A stretch of DNA of 37,312 bases from IMG/VR virus record IMGVR_UViG_3300034166_001101, positions 1 through 37,312 of that record, one strand, 5' to 3'. The position numbers were made by a program, and so were the translations under genes. Origin of the DNA: a virus. Below the pieces are notes generated by a model that saw only the letters and a list, made by a program, of their open reading frames with translations, was not told where the DNA came from and did not search any database. This document shows positions 25,904-36,974 of this stretch, in pieces. How positions within the stretch are numbered: position 1 is the stretch's first letter; each line of letters starts with the position of its first letter.

Positions 25904-26201
25904 TTATTCATTCGAATGTGGTGCGTGTAAACATGAATTTGAAGTTTTTCTTAAGATGAGCGAGAATGACCAACCCACCAAGGAAAAATGTCCAAAGTGT
26001 GGGAAAAAGAAGGTTGCCAAAAATTGGGGTGCTCAAAGAAACTCTATTGCCTTTGACGCAACTCTGACTCCCACCAAAATTTGTGGGAGTGCATGGAACG
26101 AGGTCATTTCAAGAATCAAGGGATCTGGCCAAGTTCCAAAGAGATTCCATGACAGGCTGGACAATGCTGGCAAGGGGTCTGCTGTCCGCTACGTCCGTTA
26201 A
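25896..26201 (+). CDS. FmdB-type zinc-ribbon protein
   Basis: The product is 101 residues. MPNYSFECGACKHEFEVFLK starts an FmdB-like regulatory zinc ribbon, with Cys8, Cys11, Cys32 and Cys35 as the two CxxC zinc knuckles. The C-terminal half is polar (TPTKICGSAWNEVISRIKGS, GQVPKRFHDRLDNAGKGSA) and unassigned. It overlaps the HNH gene at its start and the convergent resolvase by four bases at its end. Zinc ribbons of this type usually bind nucleic acid or proteins; the partner is unknown. Confidence 0.85.
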   Translation: MPNYSFECGACKHEFEVFLKMSENDQPTKEKCPKCGKKKVAKNWGAQRNSIAFDATLTPTKICGSAWNEVISRIKGSGQVPKRFHDRLDNAGKGSAVRYVR

Positions 26202-26737
26202 TTTTTGGCTGCTAACAAAGATTTTAAAATATAATAACTGTCAACTATGTCCGTCACGGGATTGGACAAAGTTTTCTGTTCAAAAGTTATTAAAAGGTCC
26301 GTATTGGTCTCTTTGGAGAAGGCTTCGTACATTGCCTGTTTATCGGCGTTACCTTTCCCTGTGGCGAGTTTCTTTGCCTTGGACGGCTCTATGACCGTCA
26401 CGGGAACCCCGGCCTTATAGAGCTTATGCTTGAATATTCCCATGTTTTCGGCAAGGTTAAAAACTTTGCCTTTTGAGCCATAAGAATACCCCTCCACGGC
26501 TATTTCTGAAGCCCCAACACACAAATTTATGGCCCAATCGGATATGCTGTCAAACCGATCCACATCGGCCACATAGTCCTGAAAACTTTCACCATTGATA
26601 TTTGGCAAAATTTTATCTGCAAATTTTTTAGTGTTTGTGAGATAATAGAAAAAACAGTTTGAAAATTTAAAATCTTTGCGCTCGTCAAATAGACATAAGC
26701 ACGGGCAAGTTATAGAATAATCAACACCTACAAGCAT
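26198..26737 (-). CDS. RuvC-like Holliday junction resolvase
   Basis: The product is 179 residues from the second in-frame ATG. MLVGVDYSITCPCLCLFDE has the first catalytic Asp of the RNase-H fold. IAVEGYSYGSKGKVFNLAEN carries the Glu. SKAKKLATGKGNADKQAMYE is the conserved lysine-rich loop, and PVTDIVDSYYILKSLLA gives the last acidic pair. This matches RuvC/A22-like resolvases, which would clear branched replication DNA before packaging, the task of endonuclease VII in T4. An upstream ATG at 26746 would add three residues. That start lies in a hairpin overlapping a TATAAATA promoter (see 26747-26760). Confidence 0.85.
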   Translation of the reverse strand: MLVGVDYSITCPCLCLFDERKDFKFSNCFFYYLTNTKKFADKILPNINGESFQDYVADVDRFDSISDWAINLCVGASEIAVEGYSYGSKGKVFNLAENMGIFKHKLYKAGVPVTVIEPSKAKKLATGKGNADKQAMYEAFSKETNTDLLITFEQKTLSNPVTDIVDSYYILKSLLAAKN

Positions 26738-26746
26738 ATAGAACAT

Positions 26747-26760
26747 AGGTATTTATACCT
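26747..26760 (-). promoter_or_regulatory. hairpin with embedded late promoter at the resolvase start
   Basis: AGGTA-TAAA-TACCT forms a small stem that pairs the AAGG ribosome site. TATAAATA (26750-26757) is inside it. Transcripts from upstream would fold the hairpin. Late transcripts starting about seven bases downstream would lack it and begin next to ATG 26737. Confidence 0.55.
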
Positions 26761-26764
26761 TGCT

Positions 26765-26842
26765 CAAAGGATGTGGACCTAAATTTTCTGTTGGGTGGTA
26801 CTTCGAAGACTCAAGAGAAAATGCGGTATCCAACATCCTTTG
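26765..26842 (-). ncRNA. long imperfect stem-loop RNA or structured leader, unknown
   Basis: The arms CAAAGGATG/CATCCTTTG (9 bp), TGG/CCA, ACC/GGT, ATTTTCT/AGAAAAT (7 bp) and TTG/CAA pair in order with small bulges, covering 78 bases. A TATAAATA promoter just upstream on the minus strand (26850-26857) would begin a transcript at the base of this stem. The product could be a stable small RNA or the 5' leader of the resolvase gene. It contains no convincing reading frame. Confidence 0.5.
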
Positions 26843-26849
26843 GCAAAAA

Positions 26850-26857
26850 TATTTATA
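26850..26857 (-). promoter_or_regulatory. late promoter TATAAATA upstream of the stem-loop
   Basis: An exact T4 late consensus on the minus strand, placed so that transcription would start near 26843, at the foot of the 78-base stem-loop. Confidence 0.55.
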
Positions 26858-26875
26858 TGCAAATTTTATTATACC

Positions 26876-26913
26876 AATAAAAATCCCGGTTTTTCAGTCG
26901 CGGGAAAACCGGG
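26876..26913 (-). terminator. intrinsic terminator of the tmRNA gene
   Basis: On the minus strand CCCGGTTTT (26913-26905) pairs with AAAACCGGG (26893-26885) in a 9-bp stem, followed by ATTTTTATT. It is the strongest terminator in this part of the window. Confidence 0.8.
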
Positions 26914-26926
26914 AAACCCCACTGCT

Positions 26927-26965
26927 TTAAGCAGCCATCCGCAATGGTGCGGCTTTTATATTTGC
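26927..26965 (-). other. tmRNA tag reading frame, ANIKAAPLRMAA-stop
   Basis: GCA AAT ATA AAA ... GCT GCT TAA gives a 12-residue tag starting with the resume Ala codon and ending MAA. It has the Ala-Ala end recognised by ClpXP-type proteases in known tags. TAA lies in the hairpin CTGCT-TAA-AGCAG. Confidence 0.85.
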
Positions 26966-26979
26966 AACTGTTTATTTAC

Positions 26980-27003
26980 GACACTTGTTACCCGTGTCGG
27001 GTA
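26980..27003 (-). other. tmRNA pseudoknot PK1
   Basis: TACCC/GGGTA and GACAC/GTGTC interlock (order TACCC-GACAC-GGGTA-ACAA-GTGTC) as a classic H-type pseudoknot ending 14 bases before the resume codon, close to the known spacing for PK1. Confidence 0.85.
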
Positions 27004-27205
27004 TCTACTTCTTCAATACTCTGCACTGATCGATGCCTGTCGGACCCGTGAATGGATCCGGGGAGATTCGAACTCCCGTGTCATATGCATTTCTATCCGA
27101 GATCAACAATACCAAAAGCGCGACGAGGGGCCTGCACCCATGCTCAACCACTGCTTGCAAGTCAATGGTCCTAGTCAGCATCACACACTGAACCGCGCAT
27201 AAAAT

Positions 27206-27212
27206 TATTTAG
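27206..27212 (-). promoter_or_regulatory. late-type promoter motif CTAAATA for the tmRNA
   Basis: CTAAATA starts at the base next to the 3' end of tRNA-Tyr and is followed by ATTTTATGCGCGG. The start expected about seven bases downstream is the 5' edge of the GCGCG stem of the tmRNA acceptor piece. Confidence 0.6.
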
Positions 27213-27294
27213 TGCGAGCAGAGAGATTCGAACTCCCGTAGGCGCTGCCAGCACATTTACAGTGTGCCCTCGTTGACCACTTGAGTATACTCGC
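27213..27294 (-). tRNA. tRNA-Tyr (anticodon GTA), class II
   Basis: The acceptor GCGAGTA/TGCTCGC has one wobble pair. The anticodon arm is GCACA-CTGTAAA-TGTGC with anticodon GTA. A long variable arm (around TGGCAGCGCCTA) is typical of bacterial tRNA-Tyr. The T arm is GGGAG-TTCGAAT-CTCTC. The discriminator is A. CCA is not encoded. Confidence 0.93.
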
Positions 27295-27297
27295 AAA

Positions 27298-27371
27298 CTC
27301 CTCGGGTTGGGATCGAACCAACGACATTCAACTTAACAGGTTGACGCTACTTCCAGCTGAGCTACCGAGGA
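27298..27371 (-). tRNA. tRNA-Asn (anticodon GTT)
   Basis: The acceptor TCCTCGG/CCGAGGA is perfect, with discriminator G. The anticodon arm is TCAAC-CTGTTAA-GTTGA, giving anticodon GTT. The T arm is GTTGG-TTCGATC-CCAAC. The D stem has three pairs and one mismatch. It lies seven bases after nrdJ and three bases before tRNA-Tyr, so it is probably cut from the nrdJ transcript. Confidence 0.93.
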
Positions 27372-34228: not shown

Positions 34229-34504
34229 TTAACATTCCTCCATCATGGCACGCATGGTTTCTAGTTCTTTCTTGAGTTCTTCCAACTCCTCAGTCAACTC
34301 AGCAATTTTTGTATCTTTATCCTTTAGAGAGTCCTTTATTGCTTGAGGAATCACAGGAGTTGAGTGTGTAGGCACAGCAAAAGGATTGTCGCTGAGATAA
34401 TACTCTTTTTTAATTTTTGGTGTTTGATATTTTTTATAGATTTTATCCATTGCTTTTCTATATTTTACATCATACGAAGAAAGATTCAAGTGAGACTTGT
34501 GCAT
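34229..34504 (-). CDS. small coiled-coil unknown protein
   Basis: The product is 91 residues. The N-terminal half (KYRKAMDKIYKKYQTPKIKK) is basic. The C-terminal half (DSLKDKDTKIAELTEELEEL, KKELETMRAMMEEC) is a strong coiled coil. ATG 34504 overlaps the polymerase end by 35 bases. A later in-frame ATG at 34450 lies outside the overlap and is a fair alternative. No family was recognised. Confidence 0.65.
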   Translation of the reverse strand: MHKSHLNLSSYDVKYRKAMDKIYKKYQTPKIKKEYYLSDNPFAVPTHSTPVIPQAIKDSLKDKDTKIAELTEELEELKKELETMRAMMEEC

Positions 34505-36974
34505 TTAGTTTCCAATTTATTGCCTGTAAGATGTTATCTAATGGTTCTCCAAAAGTTTTCTCAAATTGTTTCTTGCGATCTATGTACTTCTCAAGATTAA
34601 ATTCCTTGGGAGGACTGTTGATGAAACCCATCACAGCATCTTTGCCTGCCATTCCATATGGATTTGGAACTTTGACAAAGACAAACTTTATCTTGTCGTT
34701 TTCCTTGATTGCTGCATACTGCTTGTCAATTCCAATCTTCTTGCTGTAACTATTGTGAAGCAATGCTGCCTTGGTTGCAATTGGAGTTCCAGTCTGATAA
34801 ATCTTTGTATTGTCAGCATACTTGTTGATTCCCTTGACTCCCCGAGGAGCTGCGACATCAGATATAGGAAGCACCATAAATTCATCATAGAATTCATTCA
34901 CATATTGTCGCAGCTCCTCTGGGGTTTTTGTCAAGATGATCTTAATGCAGTCTTTTAGTTTCTTTCTAACGATTGCTGGTGTGCTGCTTCGTGCAGTTTC
35001 CAGACCCATGATCTTCAGTTTGGGTTCTTCAAAGCGAATGCCTTCAAGATCTTGCACAAGCAAGGCATAACGCTTCTTGGCAATAAACATGCCAGCGGAA
35101 GCAATGGCTTCACGCTTGAAGAAGATCTTGTTCTCAGAACAATTCAATGTCTTTGTAAGAAGATCCATTTCCTTCTTTAGTTCCGGTTGAATCTTCTGCT
35201 CACAGATCTTGTCAACAAAATCTGTAATGTCAGTAATTTTGGTCTTTTGCTGAATTTGTGTAATGATATCATCAATATTCAGATAGACTGAATCTGTATC
35301 AACGGCAATAACATAATCCTTGTCATTGTCCTTTGTCAGATGGCGAATGTAACCATTCATGCAGTTTTCTGCTGTCCGAATGATTACCTGACCCGTAACA
35401 GTAACGGCAGTTGCCAATTCAGGTGACGAATAGATGAATGCTGGATTTCCCAAGCAACCGTAAAGACTGTTTGCCAAAATCTTCTTGACCGATTGACGAA
35501 TCTTTAGTGCTGCAATTCGTGGAAGAAGATTAACATCCTTGGAATGCTCGTACTCCTTCTCCAACTCCAACATCTTGTTCTTGGCTTCCTTTCTCTGATT
35601 GAATGTGCGCTCAATCAGAATAGGAATGAATCCACGAATGTTATTCGTGAACATAGATCCGTTGCAGGCCAAACAAGCATTTTGATCTGATGCTTCTTCA
35701 ACCAAAGAAGGAATTTGTTTTTTCTTGCTTCTCAAGAAATCATCTGCACTTAGAGATGCATCTTTCTTGATGCAAGTCTCGGGAGAAATATTCCATCCCA
35801 TTATGATGCTTGGATACAGGCTTGTAGCATCGAAGCTGACTACATTTTTGTACAAACCTGGTGCAACATCCTTTACATATGCACCGACAAACTGGTCATC
35901 TTTGGCATACGAAGTTTGTATTGGTGGGATGATATCCTTGCGAAGAAGATAATCACAGCAGATCGTTCCCCAGATTCTTGTGGCAAAGAATACAACATCA
36001 AACGGAATCTTGGCTTCATATGCAATCGAAACAGCCAAGTCAATCAGTCTAAGTTTGTTGTCTAGTTTTTCAACGAGTTCAACATCTTGAATGTTGTATT
36101 CTGCAAATCTCTGGAAGTCCTTGGTGTAAAACTCACGCAATGAGCCATACTCCGCGTAATCCAGTTTCTGTTCATCCAACTCTGCCTTGGCAATAAAGTT
36201 TAGGGCATAACTCTCTTGGCTTGTTCCAGAGAACTTCTTGTAGAGATCCATGTAGTCAAGCGTGGTATATCCCGGAAACTCAAACAATCTGTAATCAGTT
36301 CCACCAATGTTTGTCTCACGCTCTTTCATGAGATTGAAAGGAAGCCAAGACTGAATCTCCTTGTCATCGAAGAACAACCGAGCCCTGCCAATGATGTAAG
36401 GAATATCAAAGAGTTTGACATTCCACCCTGTAAGTACATCAATGTCTTCCTTTCGAAGCAATTCAAAGAACTTTTGAATAAGTTCCTTCTCGGAAGAAAC
36501 TAGAATAAGTTTGCAGTTGGGAATGGAGACTTGCTTCTCAGTAATAGCATAGTTGACACCGGATATTCTAACACCGATGATATTGATCTTCTCATTTGGA
36601 TTGCGAAGATCTGGGAATCCTCCCTCCGTCTCTGTCTCAATATCAAAGTAGGCTATCTTGATTTGGGAAAGATCGTATACCACCTCACTCTCGTAAGTCT
36701 CCAAGAGATATTGAGTGACGAAATCAGTATTTCCGTAAATTGGCGAATCATTCAAGTCCTCATATTGCTTCAAGAACTCCCTGCAGTCATAGAGGGTGTC
36801 AAAGACCATTCTCTTGACACCAATGCCATTGAGAGTCTTGTACTTGGTTTCCTTGTCAGATTTGATGAACAAAGATGGCTTAAAGTAAACGGAGTCGGTA
36901 AACCGAACTCCGTTCTTATAGCCCCTTACAAGAATCTTGTTGCCTTTGATTGCGCAGGCAGTATAAAATTTCAT
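34470..36974 (-). CDS. family B DNA polymerase (T4 gp43-like)
   Basis: The product is 834 residues. The 3'-5' exonuclease motifs are YFDIETE (Asp111, Glu113), GWNVKLFDIPYI and YNIQDVELV. The polymerase motifs are A, DATSLYPSII; B, KKILANSLYGCLGNPAF; and C, VDTDSVY. All metal-binding aspartates are present, so both activities should be intact. The spacing and the 'SLYPSII' form fit the phage/eukaryotic B family. It is slightly shorter than T4 gp43 (898). Its ATG overlaps the upstream stop (ATGA). Confidence 0.96.
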   Translation of the reverse strand: MKFYTACAIKGNKILVRGYKNGVRFTDSVYFKPSLFIKSDKETKYKTLNGIGVKRMVFDTLYDCREFLKQYEDLNDSPIYGNTDFVTQYLLETYESEVVYDLSQIKIAYFDIETETEGGFPDLRNPNEKINIIGVRISGVNYAITEKQVSIPNCKLILVSSEKELIQKFFELLRKEDIDVLTGWNVKLFDIPYIIGRARLFFDDKEIQSWLPFNLMKERETNIGGTDYRLFEFPGYTTLDYMDLYKKFSGTSQESYALNFIAKAELDEQKLDYAEYGSLREFYTKDFQRFAEYNIQDVELVEKLDNKLRLIDLAVSIAYEAKIPFDVVFFATRIWGTICCDYLLRKDIIPPIQTSYAKDDQFVGAYVKDVAPGLYKNVVSFDATSLYPSIIMGWNISPETCIKKDASLSADDFLRSKKKQIPSLVEEASDQNACLACNGSMFTNNIRGFIPILIERTFNQRKEAKNKMLELEKEYEHSKDVNLLPRIAALKIRQSVKKILANSLYGCLGNPAFIYSSPELATAVTVTGQVIIRTAENCMNGYIRHLTKDNDKDYVIAVDTDSVYLNIDDIITQIQQKTKITDITDFVDKICEQKIQPELKKEMDLLTKTLNCSENKIFFKREAIASAGMFIAKKRYALLVQDLEGIRFEEPKLKIMGLETARSSTPAIVRKKLKDCIKIILTKTPEELRQYVNEFYDEFMVLPISDVAAPRGVKGINKYADNTKIYQTGTPIATKAALLHNSYSKKIGIDKQYAAIKENDKIKFVFVKVPNPYGMAGKDAVMGFINSPPKEFNLEKYIDRKKQFEKTFGEPLDNILQAINWKLNAQVSLESFFV

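Follow-up and report, generated by a model that had tools for sequence, protein, structure and literature searches.

The tmRNA–resolvase locus

The window covers positions 1–37,312 of IMG/VR virus record IMGVR_UViG_3300034166_001101. On its minus strand, a permuted tmRNA is followed by a terminator-like stem, a predicted late promoter (P1), a long hairpin, a second promoter box (P2) and a gene for a ruvC-like resolvase, in that order:

26927–27113, minus: permuted tmRNA (Rfam RF04321)
26882–26914, minus: terminator-like stem and T-run at the end of the upstream tmRNA unit, CCCGGTTTT...AAAACCGGGATTTTTATT
26850–26857, minus: P1, box TATAAATA of the T4 late type, the predicted promoter of the hairpin RNA (from sequence)
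26763–26844, minus: structured RNA of 82 nt, a rod of four stacked helices (covariance-model matches, covariation, folds)
26799–26806, minus: apical loop of the rod, UCGAAGUA (alignment and consensus)
26750–26757, minus: P2, second predicted late promoter box TATAAATA, just past the hairpin (from sequence)
26198–26746, minus: ruvC-like Holliday junction resolvase (PHROG 159, E 1.4e-28)

The initial annotation described a 78-base stem-loop between the tmRNA terminator and the resolvase hairpin, preceded by its own late promoter. The stretch 26765–26857 does fold into such a structure, with helices of 9+3+3+7+... and an energy of −32.8 kcal/mol (z −5.3; 0 of 200 shuffles were as stable), and the minus strand, which faces the promoter, folds at −29.2 kcal/mol (z −5.1). 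The placement between the terminator-like stem and the ruvC-like ORF is also correct, and the late box stops 8 nt short of the base of the 26842–26765 stem, as described. The size is revised, the conserved element being 82 nt long rather than 78 and starting five bases past the late box. The rod has a bulge on its 5' side, internal loops and an apical loop, and the functional strand is the minus strand, on which a covariance model (R2) scores 61.3 bits versus 19.5 on the plus strand.

The two-piece (permuted) tmRNA, which ARAGORN places at 26836–27143 with the tag peptide ANIKAAPLRMAA, adjoins tRNA-Tyr and tRNA-Asn genes (27212–27371) in this uncultured T4-like phage. The ARAGORN range overlaps the hairpin by 9 nt, but the RF04321 model stops at 26927, and the hairpin is therefore placed outside the tmRNA; in many relatives, it adjoins other genes instead. 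The terminator-like stem, at −13.8 kcal/mol, does not stand out above shuffled sequences. The resolvase ORF is likely to start at its second ATG (26737), the first being out of frame or missing in the relatives L012, L064 and L070.

The T4 late genes are transcribed from an 8-bp TATA box whose distance to the start site is roughly one helical turn (PMC2988020). The box TATAAATA occurs five times in the window, where 1.2 copies are expected. Among the 730 ORF starts of the retrieved loci, many of them from related contigs so that the counts are not independent, TAAATA clusters 3–12 nt ahead of the ATG, where single positions have as many as 57 cases compared to 0.5 expected. The hairpin model starts 5–6 nt past TAAATA in all 29 non-coding members of a 37-sequence alignment, which agrees, at the level of sequence, with the earlier reading of P1 as the hairpin's own late promoter, and the 5' end of the RNA is probably at the foot of the stem. 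A further TAAATA-like box follows 7–8 nt past the hairpin in the same 29 copies, in some relatives deviating to TAGATA or TAAGTA, and most relatives with the RNA missing or displaced still have a TAAATA box before ruvC. Numerous ORFs of these phages begin 3–10 nt past TAAATA, suggesting that late mRNAs may be leaderless or nearly so. P2 is contained within a small palindrome, AGGTATAAATACCT (26737–26765), which gives a minus-strand fold of z −3.6 and is not kept in many relatives. The hairpin is followed by AAGG or GAGG in many copies; no T-run follows it, and the hairpin is without a terminator.

A structured RNA family upstream of ruvC

A search with the resolvase yielded 80 related loci from IMG/VR, and in many of them the 160 nt upstream of ruvC proved to be organised as in the window. 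A first covariance model (R1), built from 14 sequences, matched the window at 26844–26763 on the minus strand with 40.5 bits. By covariance model, the RNA was found in 68 of the 80 ruvC loci; five were cut by contig ends and seven lacked it, so that 68 of the 75 loci with enough upstream sequence carry the RNA. A DNA pattern from the loop region, which does not depend on ruvC, retrieved 85 stretches, on contigs that overlap the first set, and the RNA was present in 59 of the 79 loci scanned. In 55 of these 59 copies, ruvC lies downstream on the same strand, and contig ends truncate the remaining four. Additional divergent forms, among them L220, L224 and L229, were retrieved with a second DNA pattern. 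Bacterial genome contigs gave no hairpin when scanned with the pattern, and a resolvase scan of them gave one weak, unrelated match.

The RNA is a single-copy element, always located between nrdJ and ruvC. Scans of 20 contigs, which reach 137 kb in length, found exactly one model match in each of 17; the L023 contig was missed by the first model in this whole-contig scan and gave one match with a second model (R2). In the majority of loci, 17 nt separate the end of the hairpin from the first ATG. In some, other genes occupying as much as 2.5 kb separate the hairpin from ruvC, and gene insertions are seen both before and after the RNA. The slot between RNA and ruvC is a hot spot for gene exchange and can hold large genes, encoding 244 and 391 aa or 744 aa (L085, L099, L109, L132 and L146), that have no Pfam match.

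The pairing is strongly supported by covariation, the check proposed in the initial annotation. In the 37-sequence alignment, which was fitted to a covariance model that itself favours the structure, 95.5% of cells are standard pairs versus 78.4% in shuffled alignments and 53% or less in slid controls. Both sides have changed in 23 of the 26 base pairs, and the covariation score is 0.543 compared to 0.214 for shuffled alignments and 0.08–0.15 for slid structures. A MAFFT alignment of 14 sequences already has double changes in 13 of the 26 pairs. Compensatory changes are thus abundant, far beyond chance, and the hairpin is therefore a selected RNA structure; a lack of such changes was one part of the outcome that the initial annotation had named as refuting it. 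Cells with G-U (53) outnumber those with A-C (11), indicating that the strand under selection is the one that P1 would transcribe. Among the aligned relatives, the apical loop reads UC(G/U)AAG(U/C/A)A, with UC, AAG and the final A nearly invariant, and the letters of the loop and internal loops are conserved above many stem positions. No conserved ORF was found in the non-coding copies. These data support well the assignment of the element to a new family of structured phage RNAs.

Another long hairpin, GAGGAGCTGCGACA...TGTCGCAGCTCCTC (34842–34925, z −6.8), lies within the T4-type DNA polymerase ORF of the window (34470–36974, minus). A strong hairpin is found there in most of the relatives inspected, L290 being without one, and a 25-sequence consensus has little covariation.

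Copies within a protease gene

In 18 of the ruvC loci, the RNA lies about 600 nt further upstream of ruvC, within an ORF of the trypsin family (PF00089, E 4e-10). The product of this ORF appears to have a lipoprotein-like signal peptide, and the RNA falls just past it. The ORF itself lies directly after TAAATATTTTTGCCATG, and the hairpin is more than 100 nt from the 5' end in this class. The loop region corresponds to the protease codons FLLDSSKY.

The RNA region of the protease gene is unusually constrained. Synonymous identity is 0.93 over codons 36–66 versus 0.72 past codon 70 (permutation p < 5e-5), and the choice of codons is atypical: lysine is AAG in 24/24 cases in the RNA region versus 70/229, proline CCC in 20/22 versus 20/226, and arginine CGC in 22/22 versus 13/114. 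The signal-peptide codons are equally constrained at synonymous sites (0.93). The structured part may be longer in the protease-gene form; alternatively, the 5' part of the gene may have been homogenised by recent exchange. Small hairpins also appear to be present in the signal-peptide region (L182, 2973–3080, and relatives), one with a compensatory change from CAAGC..GCUUG to CAUGC..GCAUG.

On a tree of ruvC, loci with the RNA in an ORF, with a non-coding RNA and without the RNA are interspersed, with nine changes by parsimony. The slot is thus swapped repeatedly while the RNA is usually kept. The chances appear evenly balanced that this is one RNA gene in two forms, either standing alone as a late small RNA or embedded in the gene for a secreted trypsin-like lipoprotein, with the two forms repeatedly exchanged. 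If so, the same nucleotides would serve as a selected RNA and, in some of the phages, also encode protein, and the in-ORF copies would be a natural case of superimposed RNA and protein constraints.

Function and relation to known systems

The element is a conserved non-coding RNA structure with, judging by sequence, a promoter of its own, one of two features expected of a phage-encoded, trans-acting small RNA; the other would be a discrete transcript that acts away from its gene. We favour, tentatively and at somewhat less than even chances, a discrete, stable late small RNA over a leader of the ruvC operon, because the hairpin has its own late promoter, tolerates insertions on both sides, survives in an unrelated ORF and keeps a fixed loop, and because ruvC has a separate promoter. 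We infer that this RNA is transcribed and processed, acts in trans and has a protein partner. A phage RNA gene of about 80–90 nt on the minus strand would be transcribed from P1 (26857–26850), with the first base of the lower stem as its predicted start. The 5' end would thus be held in a duplex, and the long rod would display the fixed apical loop UCGAAGUA and the fixed internal-loop bases. A discrete 3' end would require processing, since no terminator follows the hairpin, and the RNA may be released from the P1 transcript by cleavage within the AU-rich linker that precedes ruvC. It would bind a phage or host protein through the loop region, ruvC would be served by P2, and where a relative has the protease gene, the RNA would come from inside the mRNA of that gene. 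Two points count against a small RNA: wherever the sequence extends far enough, ruvC follows the hairpin on the same strand, as it would follow a cis leader, and the RNA is missing from seven related ruvC loci. The RNA is a well-defined candidate, for which a 5' end and a promoter can be predicted and the loop is conserved.

A cis-acting leader, which the initial annotation named as a possibility beside a small RNA, is possible, with perhaps a third of the weight. The hairpin would then be the 5' end of the late operon mRNA of ruvC and would adjust the stability, elongation or translation of this mRNA, perhaps by way of a loop-reading protein; a phage protein that controls its own synthesis in this manner would resemble T4 regulation. 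The constant presence of ruvC downstream, the 17-nt spacing to the first ATG in most loci, the AAGG or GAGG after many copies and the absence of a terminator all agree with this, as does a hairpin that starts at the predicted +1, like stabilising 5' hairpins, and several T4 genes are controlled by hairpins in their mRNAs (PMC3014915). However, P2 would yield a leader-free mRNA a few bases further on, seven relatives have ruvC without the leader, other genes of up to 2.5 kb can separate the two and, in 18 loci, the hairpin is within a translated ORF. A simple 5' stem that stabilises the mRNA without a specific partner would fit the coincidence of the stem start with the predicted +1 in all non-coding copies, but it is unlikely given the conservation of the loop and internal-loop letters above many stem positions and the position of the hairpin in the protease class, more than 100 nt in from the 5' end.

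The remaining explanations carry less weight still. An element acting as DNA, such as a cruciform or folded single strand that serves as a recombination or resolvase site, would explain the gene exchange around the hairpin and the interspersed coding and non-coding forms on the ruvC tree, and a role in DNA would be indifferent to translation. It is improbable, since the excess of G-U over A-C and the strand scores (61 versus 19.5 bits) point to an RNA from one strand and a late promoter is always found upstream. That the hairpin is the relic of a lost protease gene, its similarity left over from coding sequence, would account for the shared slot and the match of the loop region to FLLDSSKY, but this is the least credible of the readings and is already contradicted by the non-coding copies, which covary strongly and have no conserved frame.

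Several more specific functions were considered and rejected. The antisense regulator suggested in the initial annotation is not borne out, as the loop complement, TACTTCGA, is present in the window solely at the hairpin itself. The hairpin is not a terminator, since it has no T-run. A kissing dimer through UCGA is ruled out by the UCUAAG variants, which break the palindrome, and mimicry of a tRNA T-loop by the base before UCGAA, which is not U in many copies. For antitermination like that of HK022 put, there would be little to antiterminate in the window because ruvC alone precedes convergent genes.

Rfam 15 has no gathering-score match to the hairpin in the window and nothing credible at a relaxed threshold for four forms of the element, and identity with a glutamine riboswitch or a tmRNA has no Rfam support. 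A blastn search with the element of the relative L035 against named phages found nothing, nor did a scan of Mosig, Cr30, pf16, S-WAM2, Melnitz and S-RSM4 with R2 give anything significant, the best E value being 0.1 (Cr30). As far as these searches reach, the family is new, although its kind, a structured phage RNA, is already known.

By its helicase, the nearest named phage is Melnitz, at 53.5%. The Melnitz-like phages are T4-like phages of streamlined aquatic bacteria that likewise have structured RNAs, including a riboswitch and a tmRNA (PMC9004378). The window likewise has a tmRNA, a permuted one that adjoins the hairpin, but the hairpin model gave no significant match in Melnitz itself. 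RNAC and RNAD of T4 are likewise small RNAs from a T4-type genome, of unknown role and near tRNAs (PMC3014915). The hairpin RNA, for its part, is predicted to be late and was not found in the named phages searched.

The PeSL cassettes of T4-type phages (Arbiol 2010, Comeau 2014, cited in PMC4503421) similarly combine a promoter and a stem-loop at a site of gene exchange. As characterised in PMC4503421, PeSLs are composites of an early (sigma-70) promoter and a terminator stem-loop, whereas the conserved promoter here is of the late type and the covarying stem has no T-run, and the hairpin is not counted among them. The mRNA hairpins of T4 e, soc, 49 and I-TevI are, like the present one, tied to the late promoter TATAAATA in a T4-type phage (PMC3014915). 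In those genes, the late promoter is sited in the region of the stem's 5' strand, and a ribosome binding site is concealed by the stem (PMC3014915). In contrast, P1 ends 5–6 nt before the hairpin and P2 follows it, and both promoter and ruvC start codon are outside the stem, which sets the hairpin apart from the promoter-in-hairpin translation switch of e, soc and 49.
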